DNA of 10,671 nucleotides from Bacillota bacterium (GTDB taxonomy: Bacteria; Bacillota; Clostridia; Oscillospirales; Oscillospiraceae). Positions 981-9,235 of this stretch are shown here, in pieces. Numbering within the stretch: the first letter of the stretch is position 1; each line of letters begins with the position of its first letter. The stretch covers positions 1 to 10,671 of the forward strand of contig JAGFXS010000034.1 of NCBI GenBank assembly GCA_017861415.1, in the 5' to 3' direction. The notes under the pieces were generated by a model, which was not told where the DNA came from, did no database searches, and saw only the letters and a program-made list of their open reading frames with translations. Made by a program: the position numbers and the translations under genes.

Positions 981-1766
981 ATGAAAAAAATTCAGAACCG
1001 AGGCACTCAGGACGAGGAACGGGACGCCATTGCCGACGGTATCATTGAAGGACGCAACGCCGTAATCGAGGCCTTGCGGGTGGGGACGCCCATTGATAAA
1101 ATCTTTTTGGCTAGGGGAGAGACCGACGCCGCCCTGGGCCACATCGCGTCCACAGCCCGGAATCAGGGGGTTGTGGTGGTAGAGGCCGACCGCCGCAAGC
1201 TGGACTATATGAGCCGCACCCACGCCCACCAGGGGGTCATCGCGCTGGCGGCCGTCCGGGAATACGTGGAGCCCGAAGATATTCTGCAAATTGCCCGAGA
1301 TAAGGGTGAGCCGCCCTTGATCGTCATCTGCGACGAGCTGTCCGACCCCCACAACCTAGGAGCCGTCATCCGTACTGCCGAGTGTGCAGGTGCCCATGGG
1401 GTCATCATCCCCAAGCGGCGCAGTGCGGGCCTCACCGCCGTGGTGGCGAAGACCTCCGCCGGCGCTGTGTCCCATGTACCCGTGGCCCGGGTGCCCAACC
1501 TGACCACGCTACTCAAAGAACTGAAAAAGCAAGGGGTCTGGATCTTCGGCACCGATGCCGCGGGTTCCGTTTCCCTCTACGAGGCGGACCTCAAGGGGCC
1601 TGCCGCCATTGTCATTGGCTCCGAAGGGGACGGGATGGGTCGACTGGTTTCCGAAACCTGCGACTTTTTGGTGCGCATCCCCATGCGGGGCAAGCTCAAC
1701 TCCCTTAACGCCAGCGCCTCCGCCGCCATTTTGCTCTATGAGGCCGTGCGCCAGCGGATGGGCTAG
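981..1766 (+). CDS. rlmB: 23S rRNA (guanosine-2'-O-)-methyltransferase RlmB (TrmH/SpoU family)
   Basis: This is a SPOUT-class methyltransferase of 261 residues, the usual RlmB length (about 245-265). Family members 2'-O-methylate a guanosine in the peptidyl-transferase region of 23S rRNA (G2251 in E. coli) using S-adenosylmethionine. Residues about 20-95 form the SpoU substrate-binding domain (G-x-x-E-G-R-N-A-V-x-E-A-L at 20-32). The knotted catalytic domain follows with all three motifs: motif 1 with N-L-G-A-V-I-R-T-A-E (125-134, catalytic Arg131), motif 2 I-V-I-G-S-E-G-D-G-M-G (210-220), and motif 3 I-P-M-R-G-K-L-N-S-L-N-A-S (233-245). The start is the ATG 6 bases after AGGAA. The gene has its own promoter and leader. 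The next gene begins 38 bases downstream on the same strand, so the two are probably cotranscribed. RlmB and the paralogue TrmH/YacO are hard to separate by sequence alone; the N-terminal domain and length favour RlmB. Confidence 0.92.
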   Translation: MKKIQNRGTQDEERDAIADGIIEGRNAVIEALRVGTPIDKIFLARGETDAALGHIASTARNQGVVVVEADRRKLDYMSRTHAHQGVIALAAVREYVEPEDILQIARDKGEPPLIVICDELSDPHNLGAVIRTAECAGAHGVIIPKRRSAGLTAVVAKTSAGAVSHVPVARVPNLTTLLKELKKQGVWIFGTDAAGSVSLYEADLKGPAAIVIGSEGDGMGRLVSETCDFLVRIPMRGKLNSLNASASAAILLYEAVRQRMG

Positions 1767-1804
1767 GATACGTTCCATTATTATTGTTAAAAACAGGTGA
1801 TCCC

Positions 1805-4366
1805 ATGGCAGATGATAGACGAGAATTCCAATCAGAGGACGACTTCGGCCTCGAAGATATCCTAGAGGAGGTTTCGGGCTGGCTTGAGCAGGATGCCCGC
1901 AACGAAGCTCCGCTGCCCGATGTTCTACTGGATCTGATGCCTGCTTCCTTAGAGCGCCCGGAGGTGGACACGAAGGACAAAGTGGCCCCCCCTGCGCCGA
2001 CTGAAAAGCCCGCACAGAAGCAGCCGCCGAGGGAAAAGGTGCCACAGTCGCCGGAAAAATCGGCAACAAGACAGAAGACCAGCACTGAGACCCACGGAAG
2101 GGAAGCTCAGGTCAAGGGATCCGGCGGAGAAATGCCGCCCCAGACAAGTCCAACTACAACAAAAGCGCCGGAGGTCATCATACAGCCCGTGCCGGAAGTC
2201 TGGAGCGGGCGGCCCGATGCCTCCGCCTTTGGTGCGCCCATGATCCCCAGCCAAGCGGTTCGATTGCCCACACCCAAAGCCATGCGCCAACCCGCCATTC
2301 GATTGCCCATCGACAAAGGGGAGGATGGGGCAGAGGAGACAGCTGTGTCCCCTGAATCGACCCTGCAAGCAGAAAAGGGCATTGCAGCTGAGTCTGTGCC
2401 CCAAAAGGCGCCGGAACAGCAAAACGGTGAGGGAGAGACAGCGGGTCCGATTCCGAATGCTACCGCGCCGTCCCTTCCAGGAGAAAAGACCCAGGGTGAA
2501 GGCGCCAATGACCAGATGGCTGCTGAGTCGGACGTTCCGGATAACATCATTACCCTTTATCCCCAGAAGGAACCGGAAACCATTCGGGAAGCGGTGAGCC
2601 AGGCCGCCCAGCAGGCAAAAGAATGGGCGCGGGAGAACAAGGAGAACTTTACCCCGCCGAAAGTTCATGTGAAACGGCCTAAAATACCCAAAATTCCCGG
2701 GCTGCCGGATCTGCCACCGCCCCCTGACACCGACCCCAAAATCCTGGTAAAGGAATTTGGAGAGGGTCTTTCCCGCCTGCGGACGCTTATGGGGGGTGCA
2801 TTTCTCTGTGTTCTGGTACTGCTGATCTTGACGCTCTTTCAAGAGATTCCGGTTCTGCCGTTTCCCAATATACTAGCCCAAGGTGAGGTCATGGGTTGGC
2901 TGGGGCTGGGACTGTTTGCCCTTACCTGTTTGCTGAGTGCCCCGGTGCTAAGGGCGGGCCTTATCCGTCTACTGAAAGGCAAGCCCAGTATGGAGACGGT
3001 GGCCCTCCTGGCCGCCATCACTGTGACAGCGGATGCCTTGACCTTGCTTCTAATGCAGCTGAGGCCCTACAGCATGCCCCATTACCTGCCTGCGATGACT
3101 GTACTGGCCTTTCAGATGCTGGGCACTTATCTGAAACGGAAACAGCAGCGAGTGGCCAGCCGCACCGCCGCCCAGTCCAGGCATCCTGACCGCCTGCATG
3201 TGGAACCCCAGTCTTTCGGCGGAAAAGCGGCGTATCGCCGTCGTTCCGGCACTGCCGCGGGCTTTGGCAGTCAGATCCAGCAGGAGGATGGTGCGGAGAA
3301 AATTTTTCGTTACTATGTACCGCTCTCGGTGCTCCTTACCGTGGGATTGTCTATTTTGGCCACCACGGCAAAGGGGAATTCTGAGCTGATTTGCTGGGCC
3401 GTCTCCGGCGGCCTGATAGCTGCCGCAACCCTGGGCGGCTGCCTTTGCTTCAGCCTGCCCAACCGAGAGCTCTCTCAGCGGCTAGCCAGAGATGGTGTAG
3501 CCCTGGCAGGCTGGGTGGGGATCCGAACCGCAAAACCCGGAGCCGTTCTTCTGGTGGAGGATACCGATCTGTTTCCGCCCGGTTCTGTGAAGATTACCAG
3601 CGCCAGATCTTTCGGAAGTTTCTCACAAGAGAAAGTGTTTTCCGTCACAGCCTCCATCATCCGTGCCACTGGCAGCGGCTTAGATGAAGTCTTTGAGGGG
3701 CTGATGCGGATGGAGGGTGGAACCCTTGTTACCGTCAGCGACCTGGAGCAGCATAAAGACGGCATCTCCGCCCGGGCTCTAGGCCAGGCGGTGCTGGTGG
3801 GCAACAGCAACTTCTTAGAGCGCATGGGTGTCGCACTGCCCCCGGGGGTGCGGGTGAGAACCGGCGTCTTTACCGCCATCGGCGGCAGTTTTGCCGGCCA
3901 GTTTGTCCTCTCCTACTCCCTCCACAAAAGTGCAATGCCCGCCGTGGACGGCCTGCTGCTCAACCGAATTACGCCTGTGTTGGCTGCGCTGGACTTTAAC
4001 ATCTCACCGCCCCTGCTACGAAAGCTCTTTCGCTTCCCCTGGGACAGATTGTCCTTCCCGGAGCTGGAACAGCGACGCAAGCTACTCGCAGCCCAGCCTC
4101 ACAGTGGCAGCAGCCTGCTGGCGATCCTAGGGGTAGAAGGTCTCGCTCCCATAGCTACGGCCGCCACAGGTGCGCAGAGGCTGCGTAGGGCCCTGAAGCT
4201 CTGTCTCCGTTTTACCCTGCTGGGCAGCTTGGTGGGCATCGGGCTGGTGTTCTATCTGGCTCAAGCCGCCGCCCTGACCGCCTTGTCGCCCCTGCATCTT
4301 ACTATATTTCTCCTCCTGTGGGGGTTGCCCCTGCTGTTGATTTCCGGTTGGGTGAACCAGTTTTAG
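1805..4366 (+). CDS. Degenerate P1B-type ATPase-like membrane protein (probable pseudo-enzyme)
   Basis: The protein has 853 residues. I chose the ATG at 1805, preceded by AGGTGA (1795-1800), over an in-frame TTG at 1784 that has no clear ribosome-binding site. Residues 1-320 are Pro/Glu/Gln/Lys-rich and predicted disordered; they start with an acidic F-G-L-E-D-I-L-E-E-V segment and hold no CxxC metal-binding domain. Eight hydrophobic segments follow, near 329-350, 363-385, 398-420, 427-447, 503-523, 529-552, 800-820 and 828-850. This 4+2+2 spacing is that of heavy-metal P1B ATPases. Similarities include G-K-P-S-M-E-T (about 392-398) before membrane segment 3, C-L-C (546-548) where P1B pumps have CPC, and V-L-V-G-N (663-667), as in the nucleotide-binding domain. 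The phosphorylated D-K-T-G-T is replaced by E-D-T-D-L (585-589). No TGE, TGD or GDGxND motif is visible, and the actuator loop is only about 55 residues. The frame is open throughout, so this is not a recent pseudogene. I infer a non-pumping membrane protein of unknown role, cotranscribed with rlmB. Confidence 0.72.
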   Translation: MADDRREFQSEDDFGLEDILEEVSGWLEQDARNEAPLPDVLLDLMPASLERPEVDTKDKVAPPAPTEKPAQKQPPREKVPQSPEKSATRQKTSTETHGREAQVKGSGGEMPPQTSPTTTKAPEVIIQPVPEVWSGRPDASAFGAPMIPSQAVRLPTPKAMRQPAIRLPIDKGEDGAEETAVSPESTLQAEKGIAAESVPQKAPEQQNGEGETAGPIPNATAPSLPGEKTQGEGANDQMAAESDVPDNIITLYPQKEPETIREAVSQAAQQAKEWARENKENFTPPKVHVKRPKIPKIPGLPDLPPPPDTDPKILVKEFGEGLSRLRTLMGGAFLCVLVLLILTLFQEIPVLPFPNILAQGEVMGWLGLGLFALTCLLSAPVLRAGLIRLLKGKPSMETVALLAAITVTADALTLLLMQLRPYSMPHYLPAMTVLAFQMLGTYLKRKQQRVASRTAAQSRHPDRLHVEPQSFGGKAAYRRRSGTAAGFGSQIQQEDGAEKIFRYYVPLSVLLTVGLSILATTAKGNSELICWAVSGGLIAAATLGGCLCFSLPNRELSQRLARDGVALAGWVGIRTAKPGAVLLVEDTDLFPPGSVKITSARSFGSFSQEKVFSVTASIIRATGSGLDEVFEGLMRMEGGTLVTVSDLEQHKDGISARALGQAVLVGNSNFLERMGVALPPGVRVRTGVFTAIGGSFAGQFVLSYSLHKSAMPAVDGLLLNRITPVLAALDFNISPPLLRKLFRFPWDRLSFPELEQRRKLLAAQPHSGSSLLAILGVEGLAPIATAATGAQRLRRALKLCLRFTLLGSLVGIGLVFYLAQAAALTALSPLHLTIFLLLWGLPLLLISGWVNQF
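2259..2309 (+). repeat. Short in-frame direct repeat in the disordered linker
   Basis: The 12-mer TTCGATTGCCCA occurs at 2259-2270 and again at 2298-2309, an offset of 39 bases (13 codons). It encodes two copies of a V/I-R-L-P motif followed by a Lys (A-V-R-L-P-T-P-K and A-I-R-L-P-I-D-K) in the disordered region of the P1B-like protein. It may be a duplicated linear motif or simply linker expansion. Confidence 0.6.
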
Positions 4367-4408
4367 GTAACATGCTGAATTGAATAAATAGGCACCAGCT
4401 TAAAAGAT

Positions 4409-4450
4409 GAAAGCCCGCTCCTTTGATTTTTGTCGAGGGAGTGGGATTTC
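4409..4450 (+). terminator. Probable terminator after the rlmB / P1B-like operon
   Basis: CCCGCTCC (4414-4421) pairs with GGAGTGGG (4438-4445) with one G-U pair. After a single mismatch, GAAA (4409-4412) pairs with TTTC (4447-4450). The loop is 16 bases and the following sequence is AT-rich (ATTGTAATTAAG) but not a clean T tract. It lies 42 bases after the stop. It could be an intrinsic terminator of moderate strength or only a 3'-end stem. Confidence 0.42.
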
Positions 4451-4525
4451 ATTGTAATTAAGTATTTGAATCTCTTGAAAATTAGAAGTTATTAATTAAA
4501 GGGTGAGCATTTTTACAGAAAACAT

Positions 4526-4565: not shown

Positions 4566-4586
4566 ACCTGTAAGGAAACTTCCATT

Positions 4587-4602
4587 GTCGGCATGTACCG
4601 AC
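4587..4602 (+). other. Small stem-loop in the lexA 5' UTR
   Basis: GTCGG (4587-4591) pairs with CCGAC (4598-4602) around a 6-base loop, ending 6 bases before the GGGAGG ribosome-binding site. It may affect mRNA stability or translation; its small size makes chance possible. Confidence 0.4.
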
Positions 4603-4620
4603 TTGGCGGGAGGGTTTTAT

Positions 4621-5214
4621 ATGGAAAAGATAACCGCAAAACAACAGCAGATCTATGATTTTATCCTTTCCTTTTCAGAGGAGTATGGGTACCCCCCCTC
4701 GGTCCGGGAGATCGGGGATCATCTGGGACTGAAATCACCCTCTACGGTGCATTTTCACCTGAAGGGTCTGCGGTCTGCAGGGCTGATTTCTCAGGTGGAA
4801 GGGAAAACTCGTTCCATCACCATAAACGGAGAGGCCTTGGCCCGCAGAGGGAAGATTCCTGTGGTGGGCAACGTGGCCGCCGGCTCCCCCATTCTGGCGC
4901 AGGAGTGCATTGAGGAGTACCTGACCTATCAGCCAGACGGTCCCCAAGAGGAGCATTACGCCCTGAGGGTGCGGGGAGAATCCATGATCAATGCCGGTAT
5001 CCTCCCCGGTGATCTGGTGGTGGTACGCCCCCAGCAGAGGGCCACCAACGGTGAGATTGTGGTGGCGCTCTTTGAAGATGAAGCCACGGTGAAGACCTTT
5101 AAGCGTATTGACGGAAAGGTCTGGCTAATGCCAGAGAATCCCGAGTATGAGCCTATCGATGGAGGCAAGGCCCAGATCATCGGGAAGGTTGTGTCGGTAA
5201 TCCGGCGCTATTAA
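4621..5214 (+). CDS. lexA: LexA repressor (SOS response regulator, self-cleaving)
   Basis: This is the transcriptional repressor of DNA-damage genes. With RecA-ssDNA filaments it cleaves itself and releases its operators. It has 197 residues, typical for LexA. The N-terminal winged helix-turn-helix includes P-P-S-V-R-E-I (25-31) and G-L-K-S-P-S-T-V-H-F-H-L (36-47). The scissile Ala87-Gly88 bond lies in N-V-A-A-G-S-P. The S24 peptidase-like domain carries the catalytic Ser121 (G-E-S-M) and Lys158 (A-T-V-K-T-F). All catalytic elements are intact. The start is the ATG 7 bases after GGAGG (4609-4613). An in-frame TTG at 4585 would add 12 residues but lies in the leader hairpin and lacks a ribosome-binding site. 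The gene is monocistronic, autoregulated through the operator at 4526-4539, and convergent with rny. Confidence 0.97.
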   Translation: MEKITAKQQQIYDFILSFSEEYGYPPSVREIGDHLGLKSPSTVHFHLKGLRSAGLISQVEGKTRSITINGEALARRGKIPVVGNVAAGSPILAQECIEEYLTYQPDGPQEEHYALRVRGESMINAGILPGDLVVVRPQQRATNGEIVVALFEDEATVKTFKRIDGKVWLMPENPEYEPIDGGKAQIIGKVVSVIRRY

Positions 5215-7290: not shown

Positions 7291-8223
7291 ATGGATTCCA
7301 AGCGCATGGCTGCGCCGGCCCAGGGGGAGATTGAAGCCGAGGGAGATGTCTTTGAGCGAGTATGGAACCGGGTTATGCCCGAGGGGCGGGAGAGTCCGGT
7401 GGTGGTGACGCCTGTGGGCAGGAGCCGGCCCTTCAATCAAGCTGGTGAGGTCGTGGCCCCCAAAATTTCTACGGGACGTACTGTGGCTGCCGCCTACGAT
7501 TTGACAGTCAAGGAGTATGAAATGATGCCAGCCCGAGGCAGCATGGCTATGGCCTCCTGTCTACCCGATGAATGCAGAGGAGAGCCACTTAACTGTTATC
7601 TCAAAAAGACAGATAAAGAAAGCCCCCCGGCAGAGGAGCAGACGGAAGATGTTCCGGTGATCTCCGGCACCGAGGGAAGGGGAGATGAGGTTATCTGCGA
7701 ATTGGCAAAGTTGGAAACCGGCATGAGCACCCGGGACGTGCGGGGCCGGGCCAGACCTATTACCGAGAGACATCATTTTAACAATGATTTCCCGCCCCGC
7801 AGCGCTGTGCCCTGGCTGGGCAGCGGTGGTCCATCCTTTGAAGAGCTCCTTCAGGAGCTAATTCGGAAAGAGATTTCTGACTGGAACTATTACCGGACAC
7901 TTGCCCGGAAAACGGGTGGAACCGCGGCGAAAACCCTGTCTTCTATGGCCGCGGAAGAGTGGCAGTGTGCCAAGCGCCTGTGTGCCGCTTACTTCCTGGC
8001 CTCTGGAATTCACTACTGGCCGGATAGGACAGGGAAGCTCAACTTTACATCTTACATGGGTGCTCTGCGGGAGCGATTTCTGGAAGAACAGCAGGATGCG
8101 GAAACCTACAGTGCGGCGGCCATGGAGTGTCAGGACGAATGTCTTTGCCAAATTTTTGAGGAAATTGCTTCCATGGATCGGAACCACGCACACAGAATCC
8201 GCCAGCTGGTGGAGCAGCTGTAA
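7291..8223 (+). CDS. Ferritin-like (rubrerythrin-fold) domain protein with long disordered N-terminus
   Basis: The protein has 310 residues and its function is not recognised beyond the fold. Residues 1-180 are low-complexity and probably disordered, with three Cys close together (90, 95, 102). Residues 182-308 look like a four-helix ferritin-like bundle: helix 1 about 182-206 (E194 in K-E-I-S-D-W-N-Y-Y), helix 2 about 211-238 (E-E-W-Q-C-A-K, 222-228), helix 3 about 257-281 (L-E-E-Q-Q-D-A-E-T-Y), and helix 4 about 283-308 (M-D-R-N-H-A-H-R-I). Rubrerythrins carry ExxH in helices 2 and 4. Here helix 2 has E-W-Q-C (Cys226 replacing His) and helix 4 has D-R-N-H (Asp296, His299), so a normal diiron site is doubtful. 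It lacks the C-terminal rubredoxin domain of classical rubrerythrin. The start is the ATG 10 bases after GGAGG (7276-7280). A strong terminator follows the stop, so the gene is a single unit. Oxidative-stress, metal or structural roles are all possible. Confidence 0.68.
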   Translation: MDSKRMAAPAQGEIEAEGDVFERVWNRVMPEGRESPVVVTPVGRSRPFNQAGEVVAPKISTGRTVAAAYDLTVKEYEMMPARGSMAMASCLPDECRGEPLNCYLKKTDKESPPAEEQTEDVPVISGTEGRGDEVICELAKLETGMSTRDVRGRARPITERHHFNNDFPPRSAVPWLGSGGPSFEELLQELIRKEISDWNYYRTLARKTGGTAAKTLSSMAAEEWQCAKRLCAAYFLASGIHYWPDRTGKLNFTSYMGALRERFLEEQQDAETYSAAAMECQDECLCQIFEEIASMDRNHAHRIRQLVEQL

Positions 8224-8323: not shown

Positions 8324-9235
8324 ATGTCAGGCAACGTGAAAAAATTTTTTGTTCCTGCGGTGCTGGTGATCCTGCTGCTGGTTCAACTGAAAACCTATGA
8401 AGATGTGCAGGAGCTTAGAAATCAAGTGCAGCTGCAGGCTATGGGGCCGGACAGCGTGCGAAATACCCTGTCTGCGGAGATCAGCGGTATGCAAGCTAGG
8501 CTGGAGGAAACCCTCAGGCAAGAGGCATCCGCCCTCTCCAGCTTCCAGTGGGAAATGGGGGATTTGGATACGGAGACCCTAAAAGCCGCGCTGACGGTTT
8601 CCGTAACACCTAAGGAGGTCACGACAGATACCCGGGTACGGGTACAGATCTCCAACGGGGAGATTGCCTCCCTTGAAAAGAAAGGAGTCACGTATACGGG
8701 AACCGTTCAAGTAGGCCTCTTTGAAGAGATCAGCATGAAGGTGCTCATAGATCGCGGCGGCGTTACCACCGTGGAGGAGCCGGAGAGCTATATCGGGAGC
8801 CTGTGGGAATATTACCTGCCAAAACTGGACGGAGATGTTTGGTATTCCGCTGCCAAGCGAGGGAAGGACGCCACTGTCACCGTGAGCGGGAATGCCCGCA
8901 TCTACGAAGGGAAGGTGACAGAACGGAAGAATGATATCCAAACTCTCAAGCTGCGCTGTACCCTGGACGGAAAGGAGCTATGGGAGAAGCCCCTCACTAT
9001 AGAGGAGGGAAGCCCGCCGGACTTCCCTCAGTACCTGGCGGAGTTTGACGGAGTGGAGAAGTCGCCTTGGCAGACCCTGGATTTGGTTCTCATCGCCACG
9101 GACAGCTACGGCCTGGTCTACCACTATACGCTGCCCTACAATTTCCTCAATGCCGGTTATGTACAGGGGAGCAGCGGCAACTTTACGCTGGCGGCTGTTT
9201 ACAAGGCCGATGGAACACTTCTTTATCTAGTATAG
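8324..9235 (+). CDS. Membrane-anchored extracytoplasmic protein of unknown function
   Basis: The protein has 303 residues and I cannot assign it to a named family. A short basic N-terminus (S-G-N-V-K-K) and a hydrophobic segment (about 8-22) look like an uncleaved signal anchor; there is no lipoprotein Cys box or obvious signal-peptidase I site. Residues about 24-78 are charged and helical, probably a coiled coil. From about 85 onward the sequence is beta-rich with alternating hydrophobic residues (T-V-S-V-T-P-K-E-V and similar), suggesting one or more Ig-like or all-beta domains outside the cell. Only one Cys (212) is present. The start is the ATG 7 bases after a purine-rich AAGGAGAGAGGAG Shine-Dalgarno region (8304-8316). 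It has its own promoter and a terminator hairpin downstream, so it is probably monocistronic. A cell-surface or envelope role is inference. Confidence 0.75.
   Translation: MSGNVKKFFVPAVLVILLLVQLKTYEDVQELRNQVQLQAMGPDSVRNTLSAEISGMQARLEETLRQEASALSSFQWEMGDLDTETLKAALTVSVTPKEVTTDTRVRVQISNGEIASLEKKGVTYTGTVQVGLFEEISMKVLIDRGGVTTVEEPESYIGSLWEYYLPKLDGDVWYSAAKRGKDATVTVSGNARIYEGKVTERKNDIQTLKLRCTLDGKELWEKPLTIEEGSPPDFPQYLAEFDGVEKSPWQTLDLVLIATDSYGLVYHYTLPYNFLNAGYVQGSSGNFTLAAVYKADGTLLYLV

Follow-up and report, generated by a model that had tools for sequence, protein, structure and literature searches.

Background

P-type ATPases form a textbook family, defined by a single phosphorylated aspartate. The gene at 1805..4366 on the forward strand of the window, by which we mean the whole 10,671-nucleotide stretch of DNA analysed here, raises the question of what a protein of this family can do when its catalytic motifs are gone. 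An earlier note had described its product as a relative of the P1B metal pumps in which the DKTGT motif is replaced. The accessible part of a 2023 review (PMC10654040) gives DKTGT as the signature of the P-type ATPase family and mentions no pseudo-family, and in the open-licence literature we found no description of a P-type ATPase family without its catalytic motifs.

Sequence sets

In the protein search 7997 candidates, those with most words in common, were scored. The search returned 54 proteins including the window's own, at 31-100% identity, and the few source-given names among them read 'hypothetical protein'. A scan of genome contigs confirmed at least 196 relatives; 80 named loci were kept, among them loci from Flavonifractor, Pseudoflavonifractor, Intestinimonas, Lawsonibacter and Evtepia. 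Motifs were counted in a set of 176 proteins made up of the 54 database proteins, the 80 named loci and 42 order loci, which may overlap and of which some are partial. Thirty control P1B ATPases were chosen by TIGR01525 and a frame with DKTGT, so that their DKTG count of 30/30 is by construction. Besides a homologue alignment (A1), we used an alignment of 39 sequences (A2) to which divergent members had been added, 14-48% identical to the window protein. One database protein, P0023, carries PF03006 at its N-terminus and has the same C-terminal part as P0021 in the stretches compared; it is probably a chimeric assembly.

The gene and its surroundings

The frame of 853 codons is open from the ATG at 1805 to the stop at 4364-4366. 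It lies on the same strand as, and 38 bp (1767..1804, +, read directly from the sequence) past the stop of, a gene for an rRNA 2'-O-methyltransferase of the SpoU family (981..1766, +; Pfam SpoU_methylase 1e-43, SpoU_sub_bind 1.7e-16). This rlmB-type gene, called rlmB below, is the constant upstream partner. A Shine-Dalgarno-like AGGTG, read by eye, is found at 1795-1799, five bases 5' of the ATG. The earlier description of an intact frame placed together with rlmB is thereby confirmed.

On the 3' side, at 4400-4460, the two arms of an inverted repeat, CCCGCTCC ... GGAGTGGG, with ATTTCATTG after them, were noticed by eye and may be a terminator closing the two-gene rlmB unit ahead of lexA (4585-5214), the next gene. 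Further along, an ORF at 7291-8223 (310 aa) has a weak rubrerythrin match near the C-terminus only, its long N-terminal part being unmatched, and an ORF at 8324-9235 (303 aa) has a single N-terminal hydrophobic segment, seen by eye, and no Pfam match. The source genome is represented by an assembly of 1.27 Mb with a stated completeness of 73%. On other contigs it encodes three ATPases (L001-L003) which belong to the same superfamily, carry DKTGT, TGD and GDGxND, and group apart in the tree; we take them to be genuine P2-type ATPases.

Relationship to P1B ATPases

On its own the window protein has no match in Pfam or NCBIfam (E up to 10), nor among PDB sequences. For the family, profile similarity, the lack of which would have spoken against the earlier note, was found: NCBIfam TIGR01525 finds 19/39 members of A2 and CopA PRK10671 finds 18/39 (best 6e-20), with Pfam E1-E2_ATPase finding 1/39 (E 0.0045). 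The profile-profile comparison (hhalign) with true P1B ATPases reached 98.3% (E 2.4e-14) over 405 columns, residues 320-741. The reversed profile gave 0.1% and ten column-shuffled profiles at most 0.5%, and the likeness is therefore more than chance. Taken in pieces, residues 300-529 scored 95.8% and residues 530-853 scored 97.3%. The alignment with the copper type is collinear; it starts at TM1 and stops shortly after the TGD region, leaving M5-M6 outside the aligned part. An order-wide profile matches the solved copper P1B structure 3rfu at 2.6e-26. The local resemblances first noticed by eye, GKPSMET (392-398) and VLVGN (663-667), are P1B-like and align with the xAPNMDTL and LxGN stretches.

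Structure prediction gave confident folds for two family members, and the models of both contain the eight-helix P1B membrane domain together with a P and N head. P1B ATPases top the structural lists (Foldseek, VIA) for the model of the window protein, and also those for the model of a relative with 16% identity to it. In the tree, all 49 sampled pseudo members fall on one side of a branch with support 100. Profile, fold and homologue evidence are thus all in favour of the proposed origin from a metal pump, and the ancestral pump was a P1B ATPase, probably of the copper type. With copper-type P1B ATPases (CopA, ATP7B, HMA4; TIGR01525, TIGR01511) the family has in common the eight-helix domain, the break in M4 and the P and N folds.

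Domain layout

The eight hydrophobic segments read from the sequence as 4+2+2 reappear in the same layout in the predicted structure, where, as described, a soluble block separates segments 6 and 7. TM1-TM4, which model helices and the hhalign alignment make the equivalents of P1B MA, MB, M1 and M2, cover residues 322-457 (2768..3175, +), with helices at 322-347, 360-390 (containing a break), 396-417 and 427-457. Residues 458-495 (3176..3289, +) are what is left of the A-domain; TGES is gone, as region length and alignment indicate, and GFGSQIQxEDGA is conserved. The equivalents of M3 and M4 follow (3290..3490, +; model helices 496-522 and 526-562), M4 being broken at 542-543. At the DKTGTxTxG site alignments and sequence place EDTDLFPPG, residues 585-593 (3557..3583, +). 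The N-domain, residues 595-705 (3587..3919, +), keeps its fold and has lost SEHP. In the rest of the P-domain, residues 706-779 (3920..4141, +), ALDFN stands for TGDN and the GDGxND block is deleted, as judged from region length. The equivalents of M5 and M6 (4142..4363, +; model helices 780-820 and 829-849) end the protein.

Region lengths were compared as medians over 28 pseudo sequences and 6 P1B ATPases. The A-domain region (residues 450-500) has a median of 57 in the pseudo family against 128 in P1B, i.e. under half, and the second half of the P-domain (residues 706-800) one of 95 against 126; the N-domain is of similar length in both, 118 against 120. TGE is therefore missing because most of the A-domain has been deleted, and GDGxND because about 30 P-domain residues have been.

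A membrane bundle retained in this way could still serve as a channel, an exchanger or a lipid-scrambling path, with passive or otherwise driven movement. None of the eight helices is lost, M4 retains its break, and in alignment A1 helices M3-M6 are conserved about as well as the P/N head (0.60-0.67 vs 0.64-0.70). However, the M4 break lies at the site of the P1B CPC, where no conserved metal-binding cysteines are left. The proline there, at position 542, survives in 46/176 sequences and is lost in 130/176 (S 58, A 30 and T 28 being the other common residues). Conservation is lower in TM1 and TM2 (0.47 and 0.45 in A1) and peaks in the cytosolic P1 segment (0.70). We consider transport of this kind unlikely.

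Loss of the catalytic and metal sites

The replacement of DKTGT by EDTDL at residues 585-589 was read correctly at the outset, and the window protein is without DKTG, TGE, TGD and GDG. The same applies throughout the family. DKTG is found at the P-site in 0/176 proteins and elsewhere in 2/176, in the linker both times. TGE[SPA] occurs in 2/176, by position outside the A-domain, GDGxN[DE] in 0/176, and [LIM]TGD in 3/176, by position off the functional site; each of these three patterns is present in 30/30 controls. The N-domain His-Pro (SEHP) pattern occurs in 2/176, both times ahead of the N-domain (controls 29/30). CPC, CPH, CPS or SPC is seen in 4/176, the window protein having none (controls 30/30). 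The only one of these four to fall in M4 is L161 (genome G332), with SPC at the P1B metal-site position, which we regard as chance or a relic.

In the place of DKTGT the family has a new signature, D-x-[DE]-[LIV]-F-P; D588, L589, F590, P591 and G593 are invariant in the homologue alignment. Counted over the 176 proteins, the new constants are D586 (155), D or E at 588 (168), F590 (169), G653 (173), G666 (176), Y704 (173), D730 (172) and W839 (171). At residue 585, where P1B ATPases have their nucleophile, the amino acid varies (T 87, E 24, S 17 and D 16 among the 176), so selection is not maintaining catalysis there.

These new constants allow for new chemistry, in which D586-x-D588 beside T728-x-D730 would form a site resembling that of HAD phosphatases, or a metal site, with a small phosphate compound as its substrate or sensed ligand. 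The DxD resembles HAD motif I, its aspartates and D730 are among the most conserved residues counted above, and the P-domain fold is kept. Against this, the ungapped profile alignment puts the nucleophile at 585, so that D586 corresponds to the Lys of DKTGT, and in the model D586 is the second residue after strand 581-584, not the first. Moreover, the GDGxND block is deleted, and residue 728 is Thr in 134/176 sequences but Ala in the window protein. A new catalytic or sensing site of this design seems to us quite improbable. Nucleotide binding as such may be possible, as suggested by the GxG that many relatives keep in the N-domain (EGGGLSA).

The status of this P1B-like protein as a pseudoenzyme is well supported, and we infer that it is unable to run the Post-Albers cycle or to pump metal.

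Distribution and selection

Within the same GTDB family, 193/200 genomes have a match at E 1e-3. For 184/200 it is at E 5.5e-24 or better, and the other nine, from 2e-9 to 3e-6, are presumably ordinary P-type ATPases caught by homology. In the order, 184/197 genomes match A2 at E 1e-40 (149/154 of the high-quality ones). The gene is mostly single-copy, as two of the matching genomes have two places and the rest have one. The class was covered with 291 genomes; the 12 of them that are listed as belonging to the same order or nearer all match at E 1.1e-90 or better. Outside the order no genome of these 291 matched beyond the level of ordinary pumps; the best match was 1.3e-31, at model positions of about 405-710 among the matches listed, and we take matches at this level or weaker to be true P1B pumps. 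Judging from the named relatives, the order is probably Oscillospirales.

One might think of a sporulation protein, since SpoIVA is also encoded in most genomes of the order (174/197). Yet the pseudo-P1B gene is kept in 15 of the 20 SpoIVA-less genomes listed, three more being unlisted, and a sporulation role appears very improbable.

Values of dN/dS were calculated by the Nei-Gojobori method for pairs of named loci with a BLAST identity of at least 70%; the 56 pairs, which are not independent, gave 0.105-0.367. The rlmB value was below that of the pseudo-P1B gene in 51/56 pairs; of the five exceptions, four include L071, a locus with masked bases and a broken frame. By this codon measure the pseudo-P1B gene is under purifying selection, which bears out the selection suspected from the intact frame. 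DKTGT is kept at the P-site by none of the 176 relatives, and its absence is therefore neither a local error nor recent decay. Sequencing error and recent decay were accordingly rejected, as the motifs are absent in all 176 relatives and dN/dS is low.

Slow decay is a separate matter: every catalytic motif is gone, identity to the window protein falls to 14-48% in A2, and two genomes (G035 and G232) have broken frames, so that the gene might survive through polar linkage with rlmB only. The dN/dS range speaks against this, as do stop-free stretches in nearly all matches listed, invariant positions such as G666 (176/176) and the confident folds of two members; we find slow decay scarcely tenable. 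The broken members are L163 and L169 in G035 and L127 in G232, which a frame break or an in-frame TGA, whether from error or from decay, cuts in two.

Association with rlmB

In all testable loci (116/116) rlmB lies upstream on the same strand. Among the named loci this was seen in 74/80; of the remaining six, L071 is a frame-broken extra case (75/75 testable) and five start at a contig edge. The divergent loci gave 20/20 and the least similar ones 21/22, L147 ending at a contig edge. The gap in the 74 named loci has a median of 31 bp, is at most 100 bp in 64/74 and reaches 828 bp; the larger gaps may hold a gene between.

The flanks outside the pair vary between families. In 39 named loci rlmB is itself preceded by a recurring divergent gene, of which the single tested example is FtsH (Pfam). 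A LexA/SOS link through the downstream gene was considered and rejected: lexA is found in just 2/80 named loci and is therefore probably outside the system. An apparent fusion with rlmB in L071 is merely a frame break with masked bases.

Seven high-quality genomes are without a strong match to the pseudo-P1B gene. Six of these have no rlmB above the TIGR00186 cut-off, their best rlmB-like matches being 23-34% identical to the window's rlmB, which may reflect co-loss or an assembly gap. In the seventh (G237), rlmB is followed by the start of the pseudo-P1B gene at the contig end. The adjacency itself may represent inherited co-expression instead of interaction.

The N-terminal helix and its tether

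Ahead of the membrane domain the protein begins with a helix at residues 14-33 (1844..1903, +; helix 16-33 in the model), which in alignment A1 carries the motif [FY]S[LV][DE][DE]ILxE, here FGLEDILEE, with I19 and E22 near-invariant. Residues 1-33 have no Pfam match. A long linker follows, residues 34-258 (1904..2578, +), which is mostly disordered by pLDDT and alignment occupancy (pLDDT below 50 across most of 48-246; occupancy 0.45 in A1). Helix and linker together look like a docking peptide on a tether.

A looser form of the motif pattern matches 28/39 members of A2 and none of the other 11/39, one of which is the single member of family f10 in that alignment. Five f10 loci (L121, L142, L154, L155, L160) encode proteins of 540-548 aa without the N-terminal tether, and the core may therefore function alone or together with a separate partner. 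Two copies of an SxxxILxE motif are present in L172 (G237, at the contig end), and likewise, in looser form, in P0024.

The motif was also searched for at the DNA level, with two degenerate patterns that require Tyr or Phe, in overlapping sets of 9 and 18 genomes. Hits fell in the pseudo-P1B gene of six genomes and at five further sites, of which four lie within, or close to the C-terminal end of, other proteins and the fifth is L188. The scans missed the pseudo-P1B gene in 12/18 genomes, including the window's own (0 in G000).

Proposed role

The gene most likely does a new job, because relatives across the order keep an intact, motif-less copy beside rlmB. The reading of the earlier note, a sensor, scaffold or channel-like protein made from a metal pump, is supported as to its origin, while the role remains a proposal. 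Our preferred reading, which we hold to be fairly probable, is that a former P1B pump now serves as a regulator or scaffold, anchored in the membrane and no longer pumping, whose N-terminal docking helix sits on a tether. A P1B pump would have been captured beside rlmB in the ancestor of one bacterial order and have become a pseudoenzyme there. It would have retained the eight-helix membrane domain and the paired cytosolic P and N domains, and have lost the phosphorylated-Asp motif, TGES with most of the A-domain, GDGxND, the N-domain His-Pro and the CPC ligands. Without a working actuator, the P/N head would act as a docking surface that possibly still senses a nucleotide or a cation, and the N-terminal helix on its disordered tether of about 225 residues would recruit a partner from the cytosol, for which RlmB or a ribosome-assembly factor is a candidate.

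A bolder form of this proposal, to which we give a low probability, is an order-wide and possibly essential platform, in which the rigid P/N head of the dead pump and the tethered helix would keep RlmB or ribosome-assembly factors close to the membrane and so link rRNA maturation to the envelope.

Measured against copper-type P1B ATPases, the family thus differs by the absence of DKTGT, TGES, GDGxND, SEHP and CPC, by an A-domain region of under half the length, by the new DxDLFP signature, and by an N-terminus in which a docking-like helix sits on a disordered tether and no Pfam domain is found. The nearest precedent we met is a human P-type ATPase-like protein, TMEM94 (ERMA), the nature of which is contested. 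In the accessible part of one paper it is reported to be without TGES and to have no detected ATPase activity (PMC12134183); the accessible part of a 2026 paper defends it as an Mg2+ ATPase (PMC13322241). As far as these parts describe it, TMEM94 has a P-type-like architecture in common with the pseudo-P1B family, but it is eukaryotic, has ten membrane helices and retains a proposed phosphorylation site, D417. The present family, unlike TMEM94, is bacterial and P1B-derived, and the Asp motif is absent throughout.

Conclusion

The pseudo-P1B family is nearly universal in one bacterial order and occupies one syntenic place. It offers a system in which to study the uses of the P-type fold once ATP turnover is gone, and it points to a core membrane protein of gut bacteria.
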